Source: Thermoclostridium stercorarium subsp. stercorarium DSM 8532
GTDB taxonomy: Bacteria; Bacillota; Clostridia; DSM-8532
Direction of reading: 5' to 3'
DNA length: 64,000 nucleotides
Assembly (NCBI RefSeq): GCF_000331995.1
Contig: NC_020134.1
Span: 2,702,627 to 2,766,626 of the forward strand
The notes under the pieces are model-generated. The model was given only the letters and a program-made list of their open reading frames with translations, had not been told where the DNA came from and ran no database searches. The position numbers and the translations under genes were made by a program. Numbering within the stretch: position 1 is the stretch's first letter; every line of letters begins with the position of its first letter. This document shows, in pieces, positions 14,412 through 29,085 of the stretch.

Positions 14412-15590
14412 TTAAAAAGTTTGCCTGAGGTAATTCACCACATTGACAACCTTTCCGCCTCTTAAATAAACCCGTGGGATCCTTTTTCCTATCAGACATA
14501 CAACCTCGTAATTTATAGTATTGCAAAGCTCCGCTATCTCTTCAACGGTTATCCTGTTATTTCCCTGAACACCGAATATCACCGCTTCATCTCCTGTCTT
14601 CACTTCCCCGTCTATATCCGTGACATCAACCATGCACTGATCCATACAGATCGTCCCCACGATAGGGGCATACTGCCCATGTATCAACACCCGGCCTTTG
14701 TTTGAAAGAAGCCTTGAGAAACCGTCAGCATACCCTATCGGCAATGTCGCTATGCGGCTTTTCCGCTTTGTCACGAATGTCCGGCCATAGCTTATCGGCG
14801 TTCCTTCCTCCACTTCCTTGACATGCACAACCTTTGCCTTCAGCTCCATCGCCGGCCTGATGTCAATAAGTTTCCTGTCCACCTCGTCGGACGGATACAG
14901 TCCGTAAAGAATTATGCCGGGCCGCACCATGTTCAGATGCAGGTTTGGGTATTGGATTACAGCGGCACTGTTGGCAATATGTTTCACGGGAATTAATATT
15001 CCTATCCGGTTAAGCTCCTGGACAATGCTTTCAAAGCGTTCGAACTGGAGCCTCGTATATTCCGGGTCGGCTTCATCGGCCGAAGCAAAATGGCTGAACA
15101 GTCCCTCTATAATTATACCCGGAAGTTCGCTTATTCTAACTACGTCTTTTACCGCACCGTATCCGGGCTTAAAACCTACTCTGCCCATTCCGGTGTCTAT
15201 TTTTATATGTATTTTCGCCTGCCTGCCCAGCTTAACCGCGGCATCGGACAAAGCTTTTGCAAGCTCATGGCTAAAAACCGTCTGTGTAATGTTATATTTA
15301 ATAATATCTTCGGCTCTCGACGGTTCGGTATAGCCTAACACCAGAATTGGAACCTTTATACCAAACTCCCTTAACTGGATTGCCTCGTCCAGCATTGAAA
15401 CCGCAAGCCTGCTTGCTCCGTTTTCCAAAAGAGTGGGAACCGTTTCAAACACGCCATGGCCATAAGCATCGGCTTTAACCACCGCCATTATTTCAGTCAT
15501 TTTACCTACTCGTTTTGCCACTTCCCTTACATTATGCGCTATATTGTCCAAATTGATTTCAGCCCATGCCCTGTAATAGTTAAAGCTCAA
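14412..15590 (-). CDS. alr: Alanine racemase
   Basis: PLP enzyme that makes D-alanine for peptidoglycan; Ddl at 35.2-36.3 kb uses it. The PLP lysine is in AVVKADAYGHG and the catalytic Tyr in PISYGRTF; KIDTGMGRVGF, IGYADGF and GTICMDQCMVD are further family motifs. I start at a TTG at 15590, which follows GGAAGGA by 6 nt and gives the family-like N-terminus FNYYRAWAEINL (392 aa). The alternative ATG at 15623 overlaps the nnr stop and has no clear binding site, but would add 11 residues. The gene follows nnr directly and precedes ndoA by about 200 bp. Confidence 0.94.
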   Translation of the reverse strand: MSFNYYRAWAEINLDNIAHNVREVAKRVGKMTEIMAVVKADAYGHGVFETVPTLLENGASRLAVSMLDEAIQLREFGIKVPILVLGYTEPSRAEDIIKYNITQTVFSHELAKALSDAAVKLGRQAKIHIKIDTGMGRVGFKPGYGAVKDVVRISELPGIIIEGLFSHFASADEADPEYTRLQFERFESIVQELNRIGILIPVKHIANSAAVIQYPNLHLNMVRPGIILYGLYPSDEVDRKLIDIRPAMELKAKVVHVKEVEEGTPISYGRTFVTKRKSRIATLPIGYADGFSRLLSNKGRVLIHGQYAPIVGTICMDQCMVDVTDIDGEVKTGDEAVIFGVQGNNRITVEEIAELCNTINYEVVCLIGKRIPRVYLRGGKVVNVVNYLRQTF

Positions 15591-15613
15591 AACACGTCCT
15601 TCCTTCCCTATTT

Positions 15614-17203
15614 TTATTCGCATGATTGAAAGATTTTATGAAGCCTTTCCTCTGCATGCCTTTTCCAAAGCATATTCCCAATCACATAAGGTATGACGGG
15701 CGGAATTTCACCCGCCCTGTAACCCGCCTGGCCGTAGCTTTTTCCGGCAAGCACTTCCCCGCATCTGCCATGAATGAATACGCCAAGGCACGCGGCCATT
15801 TCCGGGGTCACACGCATACCCGCAAACGAGCCTATCATGCCCGCAAGGACATCCCCCGAGCCTGCAACCGCAAGGCAATTATGGCCGCTCGTGTTAATAT
15901 AATATTTCCCGTCGGGACATGCTATAACCGTTCCCGCGCCTTTCAACACCACCACGGCACCGGTGTTCTTGCTCAGTTCTATGGCTTTCCTGCATCTGTC
16001 CTTCTGCACGCTTTCGGTACTTAACCCGCAGAGCCGTGAAAATTCCCCGGGATGGGGTGTAAGTATTGCAGGGGCTTTTCGTTTTTTCAGCACTTCAATG
16101 TCCAGCACGTTAAGCGCGTCGGCGTCTATCACAACAGGTACCGGGCAGTCGGCAACAAAACCGTTTACAAGCCGCTGTATTTCCGGCGCAGCGGACAAAC
16201 CCGGTCCTATAACCACAGTGTCCATGCCTGCCGCTCTGTTTAGAAGAAAATCAGTTTCGGTATCCGATATAATCCCGTCGTTGTCTTTCAGCGGGATTAA
16301 AACCGCTTCCGGAACAGTGGTTCCGTAAATTGGCGAAAGAGACTGCGGCACGGCCAGATATACAAGGCCGGTGCCTGTTTTGAAAGCCGATAACGCGGCA
16401 AGCGTACCAGCTCCCGTCATTCCTTTAGAGCCGGTTATGATCATTACCTTTCCAAATGTACCTTTATGCCCGTCTGCGGGTCTTTCCGGAATATACCGAA
16501 GCAGAAAATCTTCATCGAGAAGTTCGCCCGCAATGGCAGCCTGTTCTATCGCCTGTGGGGGTATACCGATATCGGCGATGACAATATCACCCGAATACTC
16601 CCTGCCGGGATACTGATAAAGCCCGGGCTTTGGCAACGAAAAAGTAACGGTTTTTTCGGCCTTAACAGCTATACTGCAAATCTGCCCGGTTTCCCCGTCA
16701 ATCCCTGAAGGAATGTCTATTGAAAGCACTCTTTTTCCGCTTTCGTTTATTATCGAGATAACATCGGCATAAAATCCTTTTATTTCCCCGCGAATTCCTG
16801 TTCCGAAAATACCGTCTATGATAAGATCCGAACCGTTTATAATCTCCTTTAATTCTCCAGCCGAATGGGAATTTGTACAATACCTAATGTCGGCATTCAG
16901 CTTCTCCAGAATATTCAGGAACACTCCGGCATCGCCGGATACTTTATCCCGTTCTGCGAGAGATATTACCGTCACGTCAAACTTTTTCATCAAATGTCTT
17001 GCGGCGGCGAAAGCGTCCCCGCCGTTATTTCCCTTTCCTGCTATAAGGGTTATTTTTGCAGAACCGCATTCCCGAAGCATCCCGGCTGCGGCTTTTACCA
17101 CGTTCAGCGCCGCATTTTCCATCAGGATTATACCCGGAATTCCGAATTTTTTTATCGCAATTTCATCGATTTCTTTCATCTGAGCGGGTGTCGCCAGTTT
17201 CAT
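15614..17203 (-). CDS. nnr: Bifunctional NAD(P)H-hydrate epimerase / ADP-dependent dehydratase
   Basis: Repairs hydrated NAD(P)H formed spontaneously or by GAPDH. The 529-aa protein fuses two domains. The YjeF-N epimerase (residues about 1-215) has MENAALNVVKAA, AGKGNNGGDAFAAARHL and SIDIPSGIDGETG. The C-terminal ribokinase-like dehydratase (about 225-520) has GSKGMTGAG, VIGPGLS, VIDADAL, LTPHPGEFSRL, VLKGAGTVI and AVAGSGDVLAGMIG. The ATG at 17203 follows GGAGG at longer than average spacing. It is the first gene of a run with alr on the minus strand. Confidence 0.95.
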   Translation of the reverse strand: MKLATPAQMKEIDEIAIKKFGIPGIILMENAALNVVKAAAGMLRECGSAKITLIAGKGNNGGDAFAAARHLMKKFDVTVISLAERDKVSGDAGVFLNILEKLNADIRYCTNSHSAGELKEIINGSDLIIDGIFGTGIRGEIKGFYADVISIINESGKRVLSIDIPSGIDGETGQICSIAVKAEKTVTFSLPKPGLYQYPGREYSGDIVIADIGIPPQAIEQAAIAGELLDEDFLLRYIPERPADGHKGTFGKVMIITGSKGMTGAGTLAALSAFKTGTGLVYLAVPQSLSPIYGTTVPEAVLIPLKDNDGIISDTETDFLLNRAAGMDTVVIGPGLSAAPEIQRLVNGFVADCPVPVVIDADALNVLDIEVLKKRKAPAILTPHPGEFSRLCGLSTESVQKDRCRKAIELSKNTGAVVVLKGAGTVIACPDGKYYINTSGHNCLAVAGSGDVLAGMIGSFAGMRVTPEMAACLGVFIHGRCGEVLAGKSYGQAGYRAGEIPPVIPYVIGNMLWKRHAEERLHKIFQSCE

Positions 17204-17887: not shown

Positions 17888-19510
17888 TCATTCTTTGATT
17901 GTAGTATACATAAAGTACTTGTATCCAAGGGGGGAGGAATAAAAACCGTCCAGTTTTTCGCTCTTGAGATATATGTCAACGTAATAGTAAATAGGACACA
18001 CAACCCATTCGTCAAAAAGTATGTCTTCTGCTTTATGCATAAGTTCAATTCGTTCCTTCCTGTCCGAAGAAGACTTGATACGCCTTATCAGCTCGTCGTA
18101 CTCCGCATTTGACCATTGGGCGTCATTATTTCCGCCGCCGGTTATCCACATGTCAAGAAAACAGATGGGATCATTGTAATCGGCGGTCCAGCCGTTTCGC
18201 GCCATATAGTATTCACCGTTTTTGCGCGTATTCAAAAAAGTGTTCCACTCCTGTGAAGTCAGCGTTACATTTATCCCTATTTCCTTCCACATCGACTGAA
18301 GAGCTTCGGCTATCAGCTGGTGTCCCGTTCCCTCGTTGTAGATATATTCAATGGTCGGAATGCCCTCCCCGTTCGGGTATCCGGCATCGGCAAGCAGTTT
18401 TTTTGCCTCCCTCAGGTTTGCTTCATAAGCTTCTCCTGAAGGATCGTAATAGTTACCTCCAACTTCACGGAATTCCTTTGTGGGATCCACATCGAAAAGC
18501 CCGGTGGGAACAAAGGCGCCTGCAGGCTGCTGACCGGCTTTTCCTATGTTCTTCACTATATATTCCCTGTCTACTGCGAGTACAAGGGCTTTTCTGACCA
18601 TGGGATTGTTCAGCGGCGGTTTGGTTACGTTAAAACTGATATAGTACGTACCCAACTGTGCCTGCAGATTAAATTCAGGTCTTCCCTTCCATGCATCAAT
18701 TTCGTCAGTTGGTATAGAGTCGGCAAACAATATCTCGCCGTTTTTAAATGCCGCCATAATGGCATTGTCATCCGACATCAGCATAAACCGGATTTTGTCG
18801 GGTCCGGTTATTGAAGAAGCATTCCAGTAATTCGGGTTCTTTTTTAAAAGAATGTATGAATCATGCACCCATTCCTCGAGCATGTACGGTCCATTCCCAA
18901 TATACGTTTCAGGTTTAAGCGTCCATGTATCAGGGTTTGCCTCGACTATGTCCTGCCTTACGGGGAAAAATGCCGGGAAGGCGCACAATTCAAGGAAATA
19001 CGGGGTTACCGCCACCAGTTTCACAACCAGCGTCCTGTCATCAGGTGCGGTAACGTTCAGTTTTCCTTCGTTATAGCCCTCGATACATTCAAACATATAG
19101 GCATAGTCGGCGCCGGTTTCGGGGCTAATCGCTCTGTTCCATGAATATACAAAATCATGGGCTGTTAAAGGTTTTCCGTCGCTCCATTTAAGTCCCTCAC
19201 GTAGTTTAAAAGTGTATGTCAGTCCGTCGTCGCTGACAGTATGGGATTCTGCCTGAGCATAAACAGGAGTGCCGTTTTTGTCAAGAGTGGTTAATCCTTC
19301 AAACATGTGGATCAGCATTGTGGCCACATCGGAAGCGGAATTCAGTGTAGGGTCAATGGTATCCGGTTCCGAGCCGACATGCACTGCGAGCTCGACAGGT
19401 TTCGGAGTGGGTGTGGCACCTCCCTGCCCCTGCCGGTTGTCGGTTCTGCAGGAACTTAGCAGAATGCTTGTTATAAGGACAATGGACACAAGAAACAGAT
19501 TTTTTCTCAA
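17888..19510 (-). CDS. oppA: Oligopeptide ABC transporter substrate-binding lipoprotein OppA
   Basis: Captures peptides outside the membrane for the OppBCDF importer encoded upstream. The 540-aa protein has a lipoprotein signal with lipobox LLSSC near residue 21, a Pro/Thr linker, and the SBP family 5 signature HVGSEPDTIDPTLNSAS. LREGLKWSDGKPLTAHDFVYSW and GNGPYMLEEW are further OppA-like motifs. The start codon is TTG at 19510, with GGAG 10 nt upstream; no ATG is close. It is last in the opp order on the minus strand and is separated from oppF by a terminator and about 350 bp, so it may be transcribed separately. Confidence 0.93.
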   Translation of the reverse strand: MRKNLFLVSIVLITSILLSSCRTDNRQGQGGATPTPKPVELAVHVGSEPDTIDPTLNSASDVATMLIHMFEGLTTLDKNGTPVYAQAESHTVSDDGLTYTFKLREGLKWSDGKPLTAHDFVYSWNRAISPETGADYAYMFECIEGYNEGKLNVTAPDDRTLVVKLVAVTPYFLELCAFPAFFPVRQDIVEANPDTWTLKPETYIGNGPYMLEEWVHDSYILLKKNPNYWNASSITGPDKIRFMLMSDDNAIMAAFKNGEILFADSIPTDEIDAWKGRPEFNLQAQLGTYYISFNVTKPPLNNPMVRKALVLAVDREYIVKNIGKAGQQPAGAFVPTGLFDVDPTKEFREVGGNYYDPSGEAYEANLREAKKLLADAGYPNGEGIPTIEYIYNEGTGHQLIAEALQSMWKEIGINVTLTSQEWNTFLNTRKNGEYYMARNGWTADYNDPICFLDMWITGGGNNDAQWSNAEYDELIRRIKSSSDRKERIELMHKAEDILFDEWVVCPIYYYVDIYLKSEKLDGFYSSPLGYKYFMYTTIKE

Positions 19511-19811
19511 AACCTTTTCACTCCTTTTAACCGTTTAATGCGAACCTTGTATTGTATTAAAACCAGATTGCAGCAGAACCAGTTTTCGCTACAGTATAAA
19601 TATTTCCAGTTTTTATAAGGTTCATACATAGACTTGTACATATTAAAACCGTAATTAAACGTTTATACCTATGAAACCGGCAACCAAAACACAAAAAACG
19701 TGCTGAAACCGTTAACCCGGGCATCACGGAAAAGGGAACACAAGTGCTTTTCATTACTATTACCATAAGAAACTTTTACTATCTTGTTTTTGACTGTACC
19801 CTACCTGAACA
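19511..19811. other. Gap between the oppF terminator and oppA
   Basis: About 300 bp, A+T rich, with the oppA GGAG at 19521-19524. I see no credible gene. No good promoter pair stands out on the minus strand, although a separate oppA promoter would be expected here. Confidence 0.4.
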
Positions 19812-19854
19812 CATAAAAAATAAAGAGACGGTTTCTGTCTACTAAAACCGTCTC
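19812..19854 (-). terminator. Terminator after oppF
   Basis: Stem GAGACGGTTT / AAACCGTCTC (19825-19854) with an 11-nt loop, followed on the minus strand by TTTATTTTTTA. It lies 10 bp after the oppF stop. Partial read-through could set the ratio of oppA to the rest of the operon. Confidence 0.85.
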
Positions 19855-19863
19855 CTTTGTTTT

Positions 19864-20859
19864 TTATTTTATATAATGGCAGGCGGCGTAATGGCCTTTG
19901 CTTATTTCGGTCAGCTTAGGTTCCTCCGCGCTGCAGCGTTCATCAGCGTAAGGACAGCGGGTGCGGAAAGGGCATCCTCCGGGCGGATTTAACGGGCTTG
20001 GTACATCCCCGTCAAGAATAATTCTTTTCTTATTTCTGCCGGATACCGGATCGGGTATCGGGACGGCGGATATAAGCGTTTTGGTATACGGATGCACGTT
20101 ATGGAACACAAGTTCATGGCTTTCGGCAAGCTCCACAAGTTTTCCGAGGTACATTACGCCTATCCTGTTGCTGATATGCTTCACAATTGAAATATCATGA
20201 GCAATAAAAAGATATGTCAGACCCATTTTTTCCTGCAGTTCCTCGAACATGTTTACTATCTGGGCCTGTATCGACACGTCAAGGGCCGATATGGGCTCGT
20301 CGCAGACAATAAACTCGGGATTGACCGCCAAAGCCCGGGCAATGCCAATCCTCTGCCTTTGCCCTCCCGAAAATTCGTGAGGATAGCGACTGGCATGTTC
20401 ACTGCTTAAGCCCACCTTATTCAGCATTTCCATAATCATGTCGTTTCTTTCCTTTTTTGAACCCGCCAGTTTATTAATATCAATGGGTTCACCTATTATA
20501 TCGCCTACGGTCATTCTCGGATCAAGAGAAGCGTACGGATCCTGGAACACAATCTGCATTTTCCGGCGGTAAGGCTTCATGTCAGCCTTTGTTATATCCA
20601 CGCCGTCATAAATAATTCTGCCACCGGTGGGCTCATAGAGGCGCAGCAGCGTCCTTCCGGTGGTTGTTTTCCCGCATCCCGACTCACCTACAAGTCCAAG
20701 GGTTTCACCCTTGTTTATATAAAAGGATACGTCATCAACGGCTTTAATGTATTTTTTGCCGAAAAGACCGTTTTTTACAGGAAAATACTGCTTTAAATTC
20801 CGGACTTCCACTAAAGGGTGCGCCGGAATTCTAATTTGCTTTTCGGTTGTCCTGTCCAT
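19864..20859 (-). CDS. oppF: Oligopeptide ABC transporter ATPase OppF
   Basis: Second ATPase of the Opp importer. The 331-aa protein has Walker [17 protein letters not shown]-loop [14 protein letters not shown], signature [15 protein letters not shown], Walker [15 protein letters not shown] and H-loop AHDI. The C-terminal oligopeptide extension has [13 protein letters not shown], a Cys pattern linked to an iron-sulfur cluster in this subfamily. The ATG at 20859 follows GGAGGCG and overlaps the end of oppD by 29 bp, so translation is coupled. Confidence 0.95.
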
Positions 20860-21859
20860 TTTCGCGCCTCCTTTCCCGTTCGAAAGATTCCTTCTGCAGC
20901 ATCCAGCATGCGCTTTTATGGGTCTGGGTAATCTGTGTAAACTCGGGCATCCTTTTCAGACAAATCCTCATGCATTTTTCGCACCTTGGAGCGAACGGGC
21001 ATCCCGCCGGAGGGTTAAGCATGTCCACCGGTGTCCCGTCAATGGGTATAAGTTTTTCGTGCTTTTCTGAATCAATTTTCGGTATACTGCGTAAAAGACC
21101 CTTCGTATATTCATGTTTCGGGTTATAAAAAATTTCGTCGGTGGTGCCTTCCTCAACGACCTTTCCCGCATACATCACCGCTATCCGGTTGCACATGCTT
21201 GCGACAATGCCAAGATCATGAGTTATCATAATGATTGACATGTTTATCTTGTTTTTAAGCTCTGTCATCAAATCTATAATCTGTGCCTGTATCGTAACGT
21301 CCAGAGCGGTTGTGGGCTCGTCGGCGATCAAAAGCTTTGGCTCACATGCCAGGGCCATGGCTATCATCACCCTCTGGCGCATCCCCCCCGAAAGCTCATG
21401 GGGATACTGTTTCAGCCTCTTTTCAGGCTCGTTTATTCCCACCAGTTTCAACAACTCCACGGAACGCTCGTATATTTCCTTTCTGCTCAAATCGGTATGC
21501 AGCCTTAAAACCTCACGTATCTGATTACCTATTGTATAAACGGGATTTAACGACGTCATGGGATCCTGGAATATCATGCTTACTTCCTTGCCGCGGATCT
21601 TTCTCAGTTCTTTCTCCGACATTTCATTTATACGGTGTCCGTTGAAATCTATTGTCCCGCCGATGATTTTCCCCGGATAGGCGGTAATCCCCATTATGGC
21701 CGAGGCGGTAACCGATTTCCCGCTTCCGCTCTCGCCCACAATACCCAGCACGTCTCCCTCCTGCATGCTGATGGAAACGTCGTTCAGGGCTTTTACCTCT
21801 CCTGCGGGGGTGAAAAAAGAAAGTCTTAAATTTTTTATATCCAATAACGTTTTACTCAC
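20831..21859 (-). CDS. oppD: Oligopeptide ABC transporter ATPase OppD
   Basis: First ATPase of the Opp importer. Walker A is [15 protein letters not shown], the Q-loop [14 protein letters not shown], the signature [15 protein letters not shown], Walker [15 protein letters not shown], and the H-loop THDLG. The C-terminal extension has [14 protein letters not shown] start at GTG 21859, 6 nt after GGAGGGG, which gives [11 protein letters not shown] (342 aa); a longer frame to 21892 runs into oppC without a binding site. The stop of oppC is one base away, so the pair is coupled. Confidence 0.95.
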
Positions 21860-21860
21860 A

Positions 21861-22919
21861 TTACCCCTCCTGATTCTTGAGTTTAGGATCAAAAGCGTCC
21901 CTGAGTCCGTCTCCCAAAAGATTGAAGGACAGGATAATAAGGCTTATCATTATTGCGGGCGCCAGTAACCGGTGGGGATATGAGGTAATACCGCCTATTG
22001 CCTGGGACGCAAGAGAGCCAAGGCTCGGCATCGGCGCAAATACTCCCAGCCCCAGAAAGCTTAAGAAACTCTCCGTAAATATCGAAGACGGTATCTGTAA
22101 TGTGGTTGTCACAATAAGCGTCCCAATGCTGTTTGTCAAAAGATGCTTTCTTATAATTCTGCTGCCCGAAGCCCCCAACGCCTTTGCAGCCACCACAAAT
22201 TCCTGTTCTTTCAGCATAAGTACCTGGCTTCTTACAATCCTTGCCATTCCAACCCAGTACAGCAGCGAAAACACGACAAATATGCTTATAAGTCCAATTC
22301 CGACGGTATTTATCCACCCAAAACCCTTAACATTGTCCGAAAGTTCCTTCAGGGGGTATTTCAGCGTTACAGAAAGCAGTATTATAACGAGAATATCAGG
22401 GACGGTATAAATAATGTCCACCGTTCTCATCATAATCATGTCGATTTTGCCGCCGAAATAACCGGCTATGGCGCCGTAAACCGAACCTATTACCAGAATT
22501 ATCGCGCTTGCCACAATTCCGACCAGCAGCGATATTCTGCTCCCGACCATAATTCTAATCATCAGGTCACGGCCAAGGCTGTCGGTGCCAAGAATATGCG
22601 GAAATACTTTTTCCCCCGCTTCAATCCGCTCCATTTCAGCATCGGAATATTCCATAATGCCCAGGTTTTCACTTCCCCGTATCTGCTGTTCGTAGGAATA
22701 CGGGTAAAAGTACGGAACAATAAACGCAAAAATCATTATCAGTATAATAACAACAAGCGATACCATCGCCAGTTTGTTTTTTCTAAGCCTTCTGAAACCG
22801 TCTTTCCAGAAGCTCACACTTTCCCGCATAACAACAAGGCTCTGTTTTTCCGCATCGTCCGCAGGCAGAAAATCAGAAACATCAAGTTGAAAACTGAAAG
22901 GATTTTTCATTTTCTCCAT
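21861..22919 (-). CDS. oppC: Oligopeptide ABC transporter permease OppC
   Basis: Inner-membrane permease. The 352-aa protein has a cytoplasmic N-terminal tail with the RRLRKNKLAMVSL motif of OppC, a first membrane segment, then a periplasm-facing loop ending HILGTDSLGRDLMIR, and five further segments. The EAA-type loop reads VVAAKALGASGSRIIRKHLL. The C-terminus LLGDGLRDAFDPKL is typical. Start: ATG 22919 with GGAGGGA 11 nt upstream; a GTG at 22928 is too close to that site. It lies 15 bp after oppB. Confidence 0.94.
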   Translation of the reverse strand: MEKMKNPFSFQLDVSDFLPADDAEKQSLVVMRESVSFWKDGFRRLRKNKLAMVSLVVIILIMIFAFIVPYFYPYSYEQQIRGSENLGIMEYSDAEMERIEAGEKVFPHILGTDSLGRDLMIRIMVGSRISLLVGIVASAIILVIGSVYGAIAGYFGGKIDMIMMRTVDIIYTVPDILVIILLSVTLKYPLKELSDNVKGFGWINTVGIGLISIFVVFSLLYWVGMARIVRSQVLMLKEQEFVVAAKALGASGSRIIRKHLLTNSIGTLIVTTTLQIPSSIFTESFLSFLGLGVFAPMPSLGSLASQAIGGITSYPHRLLAPAIMISLIILSFNLLGDGLRDAFDPKLKNQEG

Positions 22920-22934
22920 CTCAGTCACTCCCTC

Positions 22935-23852
22935 CTACTTCAGTTTGATTCGCGGATCTATGATTTTATAGGCTATATCCACAATCACATTCAGAGTAAT
23001 AAGCAAAAATGCGAAGAAAATCGTCGTTCCCATTATAAGCGGATAATCCCTGTCGGTAATGGAGCCGACAAACTGGCTCCCCAGACCAGGTATTGTAAAT
23101 ATTTTCTCCACAACAAAGCTTCCCGTAAGAATACCAGCCAGCATGGGCCCGAGATATGTCACAACAGGAAGCACGGCATTGCGGAGGGCGTGCTTGAACA
23201 ATGATTTAAAACGGCTTAAGCCTTTGGCCCTTGCAGTCCGCATATAGTCCTGTCCCAGAACGTCCAGCATGCTCGAGCGCATTAGCCTTGAAATATATGC
23301 AGTGGGATAAAAGGCAAGGGAAACCACAGGGAGTATATAATGCAACGGCGAAGTAAGGCCAAATGTAGGCAAAACATGCAGTTCCACGCCAAAAAGGTAC
23401 ATCAGCACCGTTGCCACAACAAACCCGGGAACGGCTATACCCAGCGTGGAAACAAACATTATAAGCCTGTCAAACCATTTGCCTCTGTTCAGTGCGGCAA
23501 CAGCTCCCATGGGTATACCCACGAGAATTGCCAGCGCAACGGCCATTAATCCCAGCCTTGCAGAAACGGGAAATCTTGTTTTTATAATATCGTTAACTTC
23601 CTGACCTCGCATTTTCAGTGAAGTACCCAAATCCCCGTGAAGCAGCCTTTTCATGTAATTCACGTACTGGACCCCTATTGGCTGATCCAGTCCGTATTTT
23701 TCCTCAAGTGCCTTCAATGTCTGCGGTGAAGGCGCCTTTTCGGAAAGAAACGGGCCTCCCGGAACCAGATACATCAGGAAAAAGGTCAGCGTGGCAACCA
23801 AAAACAAGGTAACCACGGCAGATACAATTCTTTTAATTATATATGCACTCAT
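22935..23852 (-). CDS. oppB: Oligopeptide ABC transporter permease OppB
   Basis: First gene of the opp operon. The 305-aa membrane protein begins MSAYIIKRIVSAVVTLF with the characteristic first segment and PGGPF. Six hydrophobic segments are visible. The EAA-like loop reads DYMRTARAKGLSRFKSLFKHALRNA. The ATG at 23852 follows GAGGGG. A perfect SigA promoter lies about 190 bp upstream and the leader between them has no obvious riboswitch. Confidence 0.95.
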   Translation of the reverse strand: MSAYIIKRIVSAVVTLFLVATLTFFLMYLVPGGPFLSEKAPSPQTLKALEEKYGLDQPIGVQYVNYMKRLLHGDLGTSLKMRGQEVNDIIKTRFPVSARLGLMAVALAILVGIPMGAVAALNRGKWFDRLIMFVSTLGIAVPGFVVATVLMYLFGVELHVLPTFGLTSPLHYILPVVSLAFYPTAYISRLMRSSMLDVLGQDYMRTARAKGLSRFKSLFKHALRNAVLPVVTYLGPMLAGILTGSFVVEKIFTIPGLGSQFVGSITDRDYPLIMGTTIFFAFLLITLNVIVDIAYKIIDPRIKLK

Positions 23853-24233: not shown

Positions 24234-25052
24234 TTACTTTTTGTTGCATCTTTCATAAACCTGGGTTCTGATTTCACAGAATCTGTCAAGTCCCAGCTTC
24301 TTCATCGTCTGTATGTAGCTGTCCCAGTCTTTGTCGTTTTCAGGATCAAGATAACCCATTATAAATTGTGCGTAATATTGCTGAGCGGTCTGGTTAAGGC
24401 TGGTCGTAATGTCAGCCAGTTCACTGCTTTCTTCATCGGTGTATGTCATAACGGGAGAATTGAAGTAATAGTAACCTTCCCGGTTAAGGAATGTTTTCTC
24501 CAGTTCGGCAAGGTAAGGATAATAATACTCGTTCATATTCGGATGCTGTCTGCCGAATACTACAAATCCGTAATTCGTCAGAGTCTTGCCTTCGGATTTT
24601 AAAGGAGAAGACATCTGCTCGGTAAATACGTAATTGCCGCCTTCCTTTGTGTACGTTACACTTTCAATACCGTAGGTTCTGAATACCATACCTTCTTCGG
24701 TATGCAGCCAGTCCATATAGTCCATAAACCTTTCAGTGACTTCGTCGGAAGCATCTTCCGAAAAACCTATACCGTCCGCATTGTATAACGGGTTTCTCTT
24801 GAAATAGGTTGCCCTTTCGGGATTGCTTGACGGCATGACTTTTGCCCAGGTCCAGCTTGCTTCAGGGTTTTCGTTTCTTGACAGTCTGTTCATTTCACTG
24901 TCAATCTTTGAAGGATAACCCCATGCAACCATATGATTGCCCTTCGAAATTTCAGCATTCACCTGATCTGTTGTGCCTGTGGCAAATTCCGCAGGGCTTT
25001 CAAACGGATTATGCTTGTGTCTCCCACCGAATATACGCGTCTGCATGGCCAA
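24234..25052 (-). pseudogene. C-terminal remnant of an extracellular sugar-binding protein
   Basis: The 272-aa frame matches the C-terminal half of long (about 500-560 aa) solute-binding proteins of the LplA/YtcQ type that feed complex-carbohydrate ABC importers. Recognisable parts are HNPFESPAEFATG, VAWGYPSKIDSEMNRL, RFMDYMDWLHTEEGMVFRTYG and MTYTDEESSELADI. The signal peptide, lipobox and the first lobe are missing. The frame opens at a TTG without a binding site, just after the larA terminator, and no promoter is visible. It still has its own tandem terminators. I read it as the end of a gene whose front was removed by deletion, not a working protein. Confidence 0.75.
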
Positions 25053-25086: not shown

Positions 25087-25120
25087 AAAAAAAAGAGTCT
25101 GCATTAAGGCCATGCAGACT
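25087..25120 (-). terminator. Terminator of the larA operon
   Basis: Stem AGTCTGCAT / ATGCAGACT (25096-25120) with a 7-nt loop, followed by CTTTTTTTTA on the minus strand. It lies 42 bp after the larA-family stop. Confidence 0.85.
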
Positions 25121-25162: not shown

Positions 25163-26437
25163 TTATTTTCCCTTAACCGCCCAAAGACCCAGTGCGGGAT
25201 TTGAGATATAGAAATATCTCTCGCCGCTGTATTCGACATAACCGTCGGTAATTCCTTCGGGCATATATTTCCTTTCGGCTTCCTCGTATGGCATGTATCT
25301 AAAGCCTACACCTTCCACCTCTTCACGGGTCAAATGTTTAACCGCGTAAGTAATGGTGAACCTGCCGTCGCTGGAACCGTGAATTAAATGGGCCGCCGCC
25401 GAAGGATTTTCCCTGAGATCGGCATTCTCGTTGTATTTTTTCAGCGTGTTTTCCCTTCCCTTATAGCCGTATTTTCTGATTAGCCTGTCTATGCCGTCGT
25501 CCTCTCCGAATTTCCTTACACCCGGTGCCAGGATTATCAGCTCCCCGCCGTCGGCTATTGCCATACGCGTGCGGTAGATGGCCTTGTTCCCCAGCCACGT
25601 ACTTTTAAACTCCCTCGGGTCAAGATACACAACCGCTTTCTTAATCGGCTCGTCAAGCCAGATCAGATTTTTCTCTCGGCTCAGTTCAACCGCCGCTTCA
25701 AACACTTTCCTGCTGTTGCCGGCAAACACCCCTTCAATCCTTACGTTGTCATGCGAGGCGGTGGTTACCGTCAGTATATATACCAGCGGCAGACTGTTCA
25801 GAAAATGTTCCTGGGCATAGTCAAAAACTTTTCTGACGGGGGAATGGTCCTTACCCATAATGCGCTCCATTCCGAAAACAGCGCCGAGTATATGACTGCG
25901 GTTAATGGTATCCTTGCCGCCGCACCCCACAAGTATATTTTTGGTATAGTTTGCCATTCCCACAACCTCATGAGGTACAACCTGGCCGATGGACAGGATA
26001 AGATCATACGAAGGATCCAAAAGGCGTTTGTTTATTTCCACCGGGAGAGGATCGTTTATAAGCCCTTCGGATACTTCGGCGACATAGCTTGCAGGAACCT
26101 CGCCTATCTTTACCACGTCCTCCCTCCAGTTGTGGACAAGCACCTCCTCATAAGGCACCATCCCCTCGAAAAAGACCTTTACCTGCTCTCTGGTCATGGG
26201 ATCGTGGGTGCCCAGCGCAGGCATGATGTCCACCTGCACCGAATCCTTAAGTTTTGAATAAATCATCGCGGTTATTTTCCCCGCTCCGGAATGCATGCGG
26301 GTGAAATCGGGAGGAAGAAGCAATATTTTTTTCAGGGGCTGTTTTCCTGCTTCGCCCAGCACTTCATCCACAATCTCGCGGAGTTCATCATCGGTTATGC
26401 CGTTATTCGCACCAGCAATTCTGATTATATCCCTCAT
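25163..26437 (-). CDS. LarA-family nickel-pincer racemase/epimerase
   Basis: LarA enzymes racemise or epimerise 2-hydroxyacids using a nickel-pincer nucleotide; known members act on lactate, malate, phenyllactate, hydroxyglutarate or gluconate. The 424-aa protein has the expected ligands and catalytic residues: LLPPDFTRMHSGAG, PALGTHDPMT, GQVVPHEVVGMANYTKN and GCGGKDTINRSH (the His and Lys set). Start: ATG 26437, 9 nt after GAGG; upstream in-frame ATGs lie inside a hairpin. It is last in an operon with 6-phosphogluconate dehydrogenase and a PfkB kinase, so a sugar acid is a more likely substrate than lactate. No larB, larC or larE gene for the cofactor lies in this window. Confidence 0.88.
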   Translation of the reverse strand: MRDIIRIAGANNGITDDELREIVDEVLGEAGKQPLKKILLLPPDFTRMHSGAGKITAMIYSKLKDSVQVDIMPALGTHDPMTREQVKVFFEGMVPYEEVLVHNWREDVVKIGEVPASYVAEVSEGLINDPLPVEINKRLLDPSYDLILSIGQVVPHEVVGMANYTKNILVGCGGKDTINRSHILGAVFGMERIMGKDHSPVRKVFDYAQEHFLNSLPLVYILTVTTASHDNVRIEGVFAGNSRKVFEAAVELSREKNLIWLDEPIKKAVVYLDPREFKSTWLGNKAIYRTRMAIADGGELIILAPGVRKFGEDDGIDRLIRKYGYKGRENTLKKYNENADLRENPSAAAHLIHGSSDGRFTITYAVKHLTREEVEGVGFRYMPYEEAERKYMPEGITDGYVEYSGERYFYISNPALGLWAVKGK

Positions 26438-26455
26438 CTCAACCATCCTCATACC

Positions 26456-26529
26456 GGCTAATTCGCAGACAAATTTCTGCGAATTAGCCATATTTTTTGA
26501 TTATATCCCTTTTCGCCGCAACGGCGAAA
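26456..26529 (-). promoter_or_regulatory. Two strong hairpins in the gnd-larA junction
   Basis: Next to the gnd stop is TTTCGCCG / CGGCGAAA (26511-26529, 3-nt loop). Just before the larA-family start is a perfect 14-bp stem GGCTAATTCGCAGA / TCTGCGAATTAGCC (26456-26489, 6-nt loop). Neither has a following T-run on the minus strand, so they look like intercistronic mRNA-processing or stability elements, or an attenuator, not terminators. Confidence 0.6.
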
Positions 26530-26532
26530 CTT

Positions 26533-27984
26533 TTAAACATTATATGTCGTGGCTGACGTGGTTCCGCCTTCACCTGTCCAGTTGGTATGGAAGAATTCGC
26601 CTCTTGGCCTGTCAACCCTTTCATAGGTATGGGCGCCGAAGTAATCGCGCTGAGCCTGCAACAGGTTTGCGGGCAATCTTTCGCACCTGTAAGCGTCGTA
26701 ATAACATAAAGCCGACGTAAATGCAGGAACAGGAATACCGTTCATTAATGCAACTGAAACAACTCTTCTCCAGCTGTCCTGAGCCTTTTCCACTTTTTCC
26801 TTGAAGAACGGATCCAACAGCAGATTTGTAAGGTCAGGATTCCTGTCAAAGGCTTCCTTTATCTTTCCAAGGAATTTTGAACGGATAATGCATCCTCCGC
26901 GCCACATCATCGCAATACCGCCGTAATTAAGGTTCCAGCCGTAGGTTTTTGCCGCTGAACGCATTAACGTAAAGCCCTGAGCGTATGAAACAATCTTCGA
27001 CGCATACAGAGCGTTGCGGATGTCTTCGATAAACGCTTTCCTGTCCCCTTCAAATTTCGGGACCGGTCCTGAAAGCACCTTTGACGCCGCAACCCTTTCG
27101 TCCTTCATCGCCGACAGGCAGCGGGCGAAAACAGCTTCCCCAATCAGTGTCAAAGGTATACCTTCGTCAAGGGCCGCAATGGCGGTCCATTTGCCCGTAC
27201 CTTTCTGGCCCGCGGTGTCAAGGATCTTATCCACCAGAGGCTGTCCGTCTTCGTCTTTGTACGCAAGAATGTCCCGGGTGATTTCAATAAGATAGCTGTT
27301 TAAATCGCCTTCGTTCCATTCCTTAAACACTTCATGCATTTCATCGGCGGTCATGCCAAGCAAATCCTTCATCAGGTGGTATGCTTCGCAAATCAGCTGC
27401 ATGTCGCCGTATTCAATGCCGTTATGCACCATTTTTACAAAATGGCCGGCGCCGTTTTCCCCCACCCAGTCGCAGCAAGGAGTTCCGTCATCAACCTTTG
27501 CCGCTATTGCCTGGAATATTTCCTTAACATGGGGCCAGGCTTCAGGGGAGCCGCCGGGCATCAGACTCGGTCCCTTCAAAGCGCCTTCCTCGCCGCCCGA
27601 TACTCCGGTACCGATATACAACAGACCCTTTTCTTCAAGGTATTTCGTGCGGCGTATTGTATCCGGGAAATGGGAATTTCCGCCGTCTATAATAATATCC
27701 CCTTTTTCAAGATGCGGAATCAGCATTTCGATAAAATCGTCAACGGGTTTGCCGGCTTTGACCATAAGCATTATCTTTCTGGGCTTCTTCAGCGAATTCA
27801 CCAGTTCCTCTATGGAATAAGTGCCGATAATGTTCTTTCCTTTCGCCCTGCCGTTTATGAAAGCGCTTACTTTTTCGGTAGTACGATTAAACACGGCAAC
27901 GGTAAAGCCCTTGCTCTCCATATTCATTGCAAGGTTTTCTCCCATAACCGCAAGTCCGATTAAACCAATATCCGCTTTGCTCAT
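26533..27984 (-). CDS. gnd: 6-phosphogluconate dehydrogenase, decarboxylating
   Basis: Converts 6-phosphogluconate to ribulose 5-phosphate and CO2 with NADP. The 483-aa protein is of the long dimeric type. Motifs: [17 protein letters not shown] (Rossmann GxAxxG), [61 protein letters not shown] with the catalytic Lys, and [11 protein letters not shown]. The ATG at 27984 follows GGGAGGG. It lies 27 bp after the PfkB kinase gene and 95 bp before the larA-family gene. No glucose-6-phosphate dehydrogenase gene is near, so its substrate probably comes from a sugar acid through the neighbouring kinase. Confidence 0.96.
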
Positions 27985-28011
27985 AAAAATCCCTCCCGTA
28001 CTAACTGTTTC

Positions 28012-29085
28012 TTATCTTTTTACGCGGGCATTGCCTTCCCAGATGCTCCATACCTGTTCCTCATCAGCAGGCTGGGCGTAGTCCGTCAGGAATGTGGTTG
28101 CCATTGCACCGGTGGCCCATCCGAATTTCACCCATTTGTCGGGCTCCCAGCCTTTCAGAATGCCATAGAGAAGCCCGCCGACAAAGGCATCTCCGCCTCC
28201 TATTCTGTCAAGTACGTGAATTTCACGGGGCTCTGCCACATGCCAGTTATCGCCTTCAAGCATAATTGCACCCCATAAATGCTTGTTTGCGCTCAATACC
28301 TCCCGAAGGGTGGTTGCAAATACCGAAATGTTCGGATATACCGATTTAACCCGGGCAATCATTTCCTTGAAATTGTCCATCTGACCCAGGATATCCTTTC
28401 CGCCGGCTTCAGGCCCTTCAACGCCAAGGCACAGCTGGTAATCCTCCTCGTTACCAATAAGAATGTCCGCAACACGTACTATTTCGGTGAAAATATCCCT
28501 CAGTTCCTTTTCGCGGTTTTTCCAGAAAGAAGCCCGGTAATTCAGGTCAAAGGATATTTTTGTTCCGTATTTTTTTGCGGTTCTGGCCAGTTCAAGGCAG
28601 AATTCGCCCGTTTCAGGGGAAAGAGCGGCAATCAGGCCCGACATATGAAGAATTTTAACACCGTCATGCCCGAACAATTTTTCCAGGTCAAAATCCTTTG
28701 CGCTTAAAGTTCTTCCCACTTCACCGGCACGGTCATTCCAGACCCTCGGCCCTCTTACGCCAAAACCCATATCGGCGATATTGAACTGGTGACGATATCC
28801 CCACGGCCCGCCTTGCGGAACTTCCTTGCCTTCATATTCAATATGCCGGCTTGCCAGATCATCCTTGATAAACCTTGCAATGGGACTGTCCTTAACAAAC
28901 GCGGTTAATACCTTGACCCTGAGTCCCAGATAGGAAATTACGCTGGCCACATTGGTTTCGGCGCTGGTAGCCTGCATGTAATACATATTACTGCAGTGTA
29001 CCGGCTGAAAATTGACTGGAGTAATCCTTACGCCCATGCTTGTCGGAACCACGAGAGCATAAACAGCATTTTCCTTCAGTTGCAT
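28012..29085 (-). CDS. PfkB-family sugar or sugar-acid kinase
   Basis: The 357-aa protein is of the ribokinase/PfkB fold. The C-terminal catalytic motif is DRIGGGDAFVGGLLYG, with the catalytic Asp in place, preceded by SFDLNYRASFW and ADILIGNEEDY. These segments resemble 2-keto-3-deoxygluconate kinases. The N-terminus (MQLKENAVYALVVPTSMG) lacks the usual GE motif at the start, so substrate specificity is uncertain. GGAGGGG precedes ATG 29085. As the first gene of an operon with gnd and a LarA-family protein, a gluconate-type kinase is the attractive inference; KDG kinase is the alternative. Confidence 0.85.
   Translation of the reverse strand: MQLKENAVYALVVPTSMGVRITPVNFQPVHCSNMYYMQATSAETNVASVISYLGLRVKVLTAFVKDSPIARFIKDDLASRHIEYEGKEVPQGGPWGYRHQFNIADMGFGVRGPRVWNDRAGEVGRTLSAKDFDLEKLFGHDGVKILHMSGLIAALSPETGEFCLELARTAKKYGTKISFDLNYRASFWKNREKELRDIFTEIVRVADILIGNEEDYQLCLGVEGPEAGGKDILGQMDNFKEMIARVKSVYPNISVFATTLREVLSANKHLWGAIMLEGDNWHVAEPREIHVLDRIGGGDAFVGGLLYGILKGWEPDKWVKFGWATGAMATTFLTDYAQPADEEQVWSIWEGNARVKR

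Follow-up and report, generated by a model that had tools for sequence, protein, structure and literature searches.

A LarA-family operon of Thermoclostridium stercorarium as the candidate lower half of a hexuronate shunt in a genome where the known cofactor genes are not detected

A kinase, a dehydrogenase and a group 18 LarA-family protein

A 64,000-nt stretch of the Thermoclostridium stercorarium subsp. stercorarium DSM 8532 chromosome (NC_020134.1, positions 2,702,627 to 2,766,626; hereafter the window, to which coordinates refer unless a contig is named) carries a compact array of three genes. They encode a PfkB-family kinase, a 6-phosphogluconate dehydrogenase (Gnd) and a LarA-family protein, in that order on the minus strand and with intergenic gaps of 27 and 41 bp.

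28012-29085, minus strand: PfkB-family kinase, 357 aa (Pfam PfkB, 77 bits, over cut-off)
26533-27984, minus strand: Gnd, decarboxylating 6-phosphogluconate dehydrogenase, 483 aa (TIGR00873, 804 bits, cut-off 426.7)
25163-26491, minus strand: LarA-family group 18 protein, 442 aa as listed (NF052594, 636.8 bits, cut-off 500)

An earlier note on this DNA, made from its letters alone, had described three genes running in one direction with short gaps, and the minus-strand open reading frames, the gap lengths and the Pfam matches bear this out. Gnd carries the domains 6PGD (468 bits) and NAD_binding_2 (175 bits) and the LarA-family protein carries Lar_N (48 bits), all over cut-off.

NF052594, whose curated cut-off the LarA-family protein passes, is named "nickel-dependent putative hexonate epimerase" (NPN_18_hexonate), and this name together with the family score assigns the protein to group 18 of Desguin et al. 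2020 (PMC7583248). In that work groups 19 and 20 include members with demonstrated D-gluconate 2-epimerase activity, whereas a hexonate substrate for group 18 is hypothesised only. Table 1 of PMC7583248 includes no group 18 protein.

The His/Lys set typical of enzymes with the nickel-pincer nucleotide (NPN) cofactor, which the earlier note had recognised, is indeed in place. R65, H96, H174, K184, H200 and K303 align with R75, H108, H174, K184, H200 and K298 of LarA, the lactate racemase of Lactiplantibacillus plantarum (LarA residue numbers from PMC7583248; the equivalence of K303 and K298 is an alignment reading). All six are invariant in 131 group 18 sequences: the window protein and those of a pool of 130 loci, duplicates kept, drawn from 20 + 30 stretches from genomes and the best 80 of 575 contig loci (these 80 biased towards close relatives). 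At the substrate site, gluconate 2-epimerases (GntE) usually have E, V, A and H at LarA positions 175, 176, 358 and 359 (PMC11770544). The window protein carries this signature as E175, V176, A367 and H368, the last two equated through alignment to the solved chain 4NAR, and EVAH recurs in 128/131 sequences; L. plantarum LarA, which shares the fold and the NPN-binding and catalytic residues, instead has F-F-W-T.

The same relationship emerges from structure. An AlphaFold2 model of the protein (predicted local distance difference test, pLDDT, 84) has the LarA fold, and a 17-sequence profile picks out 4NAR as the closest solved chain (E 2.2e-45). This chain superposes on the model with Z 38.8 over 393 residues at 23% identity, as against Z 19 to 28 for other LarA-family structures (LarA about 26, I. 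pallida LarA 28). 4NAR is GntE2 (LarAH20), the D-gluconate 2-epimerase of Thermotoga maritima (PMC7583248); it belongs to group 20 rather than group 18, but the two proteins have the fold, the NPN residues and the E and A-H substrate-site features in common. The window gene is under strong purifying selection, with dN/dS about 0.05 at dS above 1 against two congeners (G001 and G002).

Gene neighbourhoods and the proposed shunt

The earlier note had suggested looking for the trio in other genomes, and LarA, Gnd and a window-type PfkB stand together in 14 of the 20 relatives' loci fetched first. For a wider census, removal of duplicates from the pool of 130 left 121 non-redundant group 18 loci, of which 69 are well flanked (at least 4.5 kb on both sides), and neighbours were counted within 6 kb. 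Gnd is present in 95/121 loci (57/69 well-flanked), a window-type PfkB in 62/121 (42/69), a short-chain dehydrogenase/reductase (SDR) related to D-mannonate oxidoreductase in 48/121 (24/69) and the uronate isomerase UxaC in 21/121 (14/69). Representatives from one locus (L030) match D-mannonate oxidoreductase PRK08277 at 431 bits (cut-off 281) and glucuronate isomerase PRK02925 at 618 bits (cut-off 387), and the tagaturonate epimerase UxaE lies near group 18 in 10/121 loci (representative 553 bits). Partner genes are nearly always on the strand of the group 18 gene (Gnd in 93/95), and the 82 loci holding at least three of the five genes show 31 patterns of content and order. A common strand combined with such varied patterns argues for a shared function rather than one inherited block, and chance clustering of the trio is ruled out by the census. 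One genome (G230) holds two closely similar group 18 loci (L099 and L100), each with the SDR, a Gnd in reverse orientation, a PFK-like gene and UxaE.

We read the operon, with a probability of roughly 0.6, as the lower half of a shunt for hexuronate catabolism whose cofactor does not come from the host's own LarB, LarE or LarC. D-glucuronate, and with UxaE also D-galacturonate, would be converted through D-fructuronate to D-mannonate. The group 18 protein would then turn D-mannonate into its C2 epimer D-gluconate through a proton-coupled transfer of hydride to NPN, with K184 and H200 holding the cofactor and H96 and H174 serving as acid and base. Phosphorylation of D-gluconate at C6 would fall to the PfkB kinase, and Gnd would oxidatively decarboxylate the resulting 6-phosphogluconate to ribulose 5-phosphate, giving back the reducing power consumed by the mannonate oxidoreductase; such a balance between fructuronate reduction and Gnd has been argued for an analogous pathway in PMC6978723. 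Mannonate dehydratase (UxuA), 2-keto-3-deoxygluconate (KDG) kinase and 2-keto-3-deoxy-6-phosphogluconate (KDPG) aldolase would all be bypassed. The earlier note had drawn the same line from mannonate through gluconate and 6-phosphogluconate to ribulose 5-phosphate, and the EVAH signature, the GntE2 fold and the SDR, UxaC, UxaE and FGGY-kinase context (see below) support it well. Directly observed are the identities of the genes, their conserved linkage, the active-site residues and the lack of LarB, LarE and LarC over cut-off; the substrates (that of the kinase among them), the order of the steps, the use of NPN and its source are inferred.

A mannonate–gluconate route was already proposed for Thermotoga by Rodionova et al. 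2012 (via PMC6978723 and PMC3750489), and the pathway proposed here is a variant of it, in which the kinase and the group 18 epimerase are newly assigned from gene context. The regulon of GntE2 in T. maritima holds gnd and gntK (PMC3750489); the window likewise has Gnd, but a PfkB kinase in place of gntK. Two steps of a hexuronate shunt in fibre-degrading anaerobes would thereby gain gene candidates, the group 18 LarA epimerase and the PfkB aldonate kinase.

The order of these two steps could be the reverse, with PfkB as a mannonate kinase and the LarA-family protein as a 6-phosphomannonate 2-epimerase. Extracts of Lactobacillus suebicus phosphorylate mannonate and then epimerise it (PMC6978723), and the gene context here is compatible with both orders. 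The hybrid galacturonate/phosphoketolase pathway of that organism also joins mannonate to 6-phosphogluconate and Gnd, but differs from the proposed shunt in phosphorylating first and in its phosphoketolase exit, and PMC6978723 does not identify its genes. On the other side, the EVAH signature belongs to enzymes shown to act on unphosphorylated D-mannonate (PMC7583248, PMC11770544), and gluconokinase-like FGGY proteins occur where PfkB is absent, although gluconokinase homologues of L. suebicus may themselves be mannonate kinases (PMC6978723). We consider the reversed order rather unlikely.

For the kinase, designation as a gluconate (or mannonate) 6-kinase is suggested by gene context. Its nearest solved relative, by sequence and by fold, is the T. 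maritima KDG kinase TM0067 (2afb; E 1.9e-80 with a 13-sequence profile; Z 39.7, 26% identity), from which it differs in its gene partners, and it carries a GGGD motif at residues 296-299. It falls under the cut-off in each of its 15 NCBIfam matches, far so for the KDG-kinase equivalogs (NF041332, 99.9 bits versus 440; NF052444, 34 versus 400); at E 0.001 no gluconokinase model is among these 15, although the protein may still act like one. The main ground for calling it an aldonate kinase is an apparent exchange: an FGGY kinase lies within 8/121 group 18 loci, and none of these 8 has a window-type PfkB (Fisher p 0.0025; p 0.020 for well-flanked loci, four of which have FGGY).

Several observations temper this inference. 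The solved kinases nearest to the PfkB protein are, as noted, KDG kinases; the best model for the FGGY representative, gluconokinase TIGR01314, reaches just 242 bits (cut-off 649), with xylulokinase at 204; another PfkB-family kinase is present in 3/8 FGGY loci (L087, L095 and L121) and a KDG-kinase-like gene in one (L089); and 23/69 well-flanked loci have neither a window-type PfkB nor an FGGY kinase. Given these extra kinases and the loci with neither, the exchange is suggestive and falls short of proof.

That PfkB is instead an ordinary KDG kinase, in a loose sugar-acid cluster rather than a single pathway, would agree with its nearest solved structures and with the presence of UxuA in the window genome. 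Against this stand its scores far below the equivalog cut-offs and the occurrence of the same kinase subfamily with Gnd and LarA in genomes lacking UxuA (for example G007, G008, G013 and G023). KDPG-aldolase-like genes, moreover, were found in 2/121 loci, neither with a window-type kinase (one query was used, and divergent aldolases may be missed). We regard this alternative as improbable.

The distribution of UxuA offers a further view of the proposed shunt. In a near set of 61 genomes (the window genome and 60 relatives; presence includes one partial UxuA and one split UxaC), group 18 is over cut-off in 9/12 genomes with UxaC and without UxuA, versus 9/26 with both (p 0.035, kinship uncorrected). 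Mannonate-forming enzymes are encoded together with the epimerase, the kinase and gnd in loci of relatives.

Other findings weigh against the shunt or limit its reach. Within 6 kb of group 18, Gnd is missing from 26/121 loci, some of them on short contigs, and UxuA is present in 3/121. In the near set, 3/21 group 18 carriers have no UxaC match. The window genome itself has UxuA (C1:485177), so the classical route may exist there, and its UxaC (C1:2293582) lies away from the trio; with both enzymes encoded, the shunt would operate in parallel with that route. In two loci (L026 of G046 and L089 of G135) the LarA gene stands beside KDG-kinase-like and KDPG-aldolase-like genes, identified by eye and by blast, which suggests that the epimerase of such hosts supplies an Entner-Doudoroff-type branch instead. 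In the excerpts of the cited papers we found no reported activity for any group 18 protein or for the window PfkB kinase.

The missing genes for cofactor synthesis

The known route to NPN runs through LarB, LarE and LarC (PMC7583248, PMC11796402), and a known NPN source was not found in the window genome with the models for these three proteins, a further point against the shunt as proposed. That genome is complete in one contig (2,974,379 bases, 100% complete). LarC has zero matches in it, a loose first look included. For LarB the single match reaches 46.7 bits versus a cut-off of 175 and was rejected as PurE inside a purine operon. LarE gives four partial matches, the best at 27.5 bits versus a cut-off of 150, which we take to be PP-loop paralogues. 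The earlier statement that no lar cofactor genes lie nearby thus holds and extends to the whole genome. The models themselves perform on controls: among 14 known genomes LarC is over cut-off in six (T. maritima and Corynebacterium glutamicum included), LarB in six and LarE in five. T. maritima, whose LarE has been characterised according to the title of PMC9283937, differs from the window genome, where neither LarC nor LarE is over cut-off.

The absence recurs in other carriers of group 18. In the near set LarC is not over cut-off in 14/21 carriers (the window genome included), and in none of these 14 does LarB or LarE pass its cut-off either. Among 392 genomes drawn class-wide (95% completeness requested), 40 gave a group 18 match, 39 of them over cut-off. 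LarC is over cut-off in 14 of these 40; the remaining 26 include G070, with an 18.6-bit match. LarB is over cut-off in 0/26 of the LarC-less carriers, with a 54.9-bit piece in a 92-aa frame in G381. LarE was run on the near set, so that its class-wide coverage is the ten genomes common to both sets. None of the 121 loci has LarB, LarC or LarE within 6 kb of group 18 at 100 bits.

Could the three genes be present yet too divergent, split or unassembled to be detected? Most of the relatives are draft genomes, and the G381 piece lies under the LarB cut-off. Partial sets also occur (LarB and LarC without LarE in G004 and G045; LarC alone in G001, G021, G026 and G028), so the LarE and LarB models may miss some forms. 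The window genome, however, is complete and has zero LarC candidates, its LarB-like match being PurE; the LarC model finds its target in T. maritima, C. glutamicum and four more controls; and of the 61 near-set genomes 24 have LarC over cut-off, 19 LarB and 17 LarE, with split LarC genes detected as well in class-wide carriers. Draft gaps alone are unlikely to explain the loss of LarC in 26/40 carriers, and we hold failed detection in general to be very improbable.

The earlier note had named absence of larBCE from the genome among the findings that would refute its route. As far as the models tell the genes are indeed absent, and we read this as a puzzle of cofactor supply rather than as a refutation of the route, because the absence recurs in 14/21 near and 26/40 class-wide carriers (the latter for LarC and LarB) while the cofactor residues are invariant: D62, R65, H96, H174, K184, H200 and K303 are unchanged in 32 sequences whose genomes lack LarC, in 19 whose genomes have it and in 80 of untested LarC status.

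These observations bear on whether group 18 LarA might work without NPN, with a different hydride carrier (a nicotinamide nucleotide, for instance), or be catalytically idle in hosts lacking LarBCE. The 26/40 class-wide carriers without LarC and LarB over cut-off, and the 14/21 near carriers without any of the three, are what such an enzyme would lead one to expect. But the seven active-site residues are as invariant in the LarC-less as in the LarC-bearing sequences, the LarA gene is under strong purifying selection, and published GntE activity required NPN (PMC7583248); we judge an NPN-free or idle enzyme unlikely.

Group 18 hosts may scavenge NPN, make it with unrecognised enzymes or not need it. 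Under the proposed shunt, the host would take NPN or a late precursor from its neighbours, or would build NPN with unrecognised enzymes. A broader conjecture, to which we give slightly less than even odds, is that NPN is shared like a vitamin: many anaerobes that degrade plant fibre would keep the epimerase, would repeatedly have lost LarB, LarE and LarC, and would import NPN or a precursor or own a second route. We noticed no literature on LarA without LarBCE, which is not proof of its absence. LarA-type enzymes with an intact nickel-pincer site are common where the sole known cofactor route was not found; cell-to-cell transfer of the cofactor, a second synthesis route or an NPN-free enzyme would, if true, each change a young field.

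One genus may show the loss of larBCE in steps with the epimerase operon intact. Whereas larE, larB and larC lie side by side in G002, G001 has LarC plus an adjacent 62-residue LarE match, with LarB not over cut-off, and neither G003 nor the window genome has any of the three over cut-off; all four genomes keep the trio. On a tree of 51 LarA sequences, LarC status changes at least 14 times on the best tree (7 changes forced by starred branches; shuffled mean 15.6), and clustering of LarC status was not seen, the bootstrap leaving this not settled.

As a possible explanation for the presence of LarC, other LarA proteins were counted over our own threshold of 90 bits to PF09861; they are present in 10/14 LarC-bearing and 11/26 LarC-less group 18 genomes (Fisher p 0.10, no clear answer). 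PF09861 is silent in C. glutamicum, the source species of GntE1, so these counts may be low. Two near-complete genomes, G053 and G046, have three LarA-family matches each (one of those in G046 being group 18) with LarB, LarC and LarE not over cut-off; the missing-cofactor pattern is therefore not limited to group 18.

Flanking elements and the LarA start

Three further features flank the LarA gene or lie downstream of it.

26456-26489, no strand: 14-bp inverted repeat at the Gnd–LarA junction, overlapping the listed start of LarA
25096-25120, minus strand: terminator-like hairpin 42 bp past the LarA stop, a possible operon end (weak)
17894-23852, minus strand: Opp-type ABC transporter downstream (SBP_bac_5, two ATPases, two permeases; Pfam)

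LarA as listed probably begins at least 13 codons too early, with the real start at 26452 (M14) or later, since its relatives begin at about M14-M19, the inverted repeat takes in its first codons, and residues 1-14 have pLDDT below 50. One arm of the repeat, GGCTAATTCGCA, also occurs in the same Gnd–LarA gap of the congeners G002 and G003, and G002 also has the opposite arm, nearly identical and some 200 bp distant. A conserved regulatory hairpin was considered and rejected: hairpins recur in the gap among congeners, and the sequence is not conserved beyond the genus. This loss, together with the distance between the arms in G002, makes a small mobile repeat likelier, and it looks as if such a repeat gave the LarA gene its false early start.

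Terminator-like sites in the window numbered 7 versus 6.3 expected in shuffles, and a promoter scan gave no excess over shuffled sequence. An OppB homologue follows LarA in 5/20 of the relatives' loci fetched first. The Opp transporter as an importer of NPN is unsupported, since OppB follows LarA in LarC-less and LarC-bearing congeners alike.

Between the transporter and LarA, at 24237-25052, lies an open frame of 272 aa with weak DUF3502 similarity (15.7 bits, under cut-off), likely a C-terminal remnant of a sugar-binding protein. No match to it outside the window genome was found among the fetched loci, and a glycoside hydrolase family 4 (GH4) glycosidase occupies its place in G001 and G002. 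Downstream of the Opp block, genes for alanine racemase and NAD(P)H-hydrate repair (YjeF) lie at 14418-17203; 7 group 18 loci also hold, within 6 kb, a member of a protein cluster represented by YjeF.

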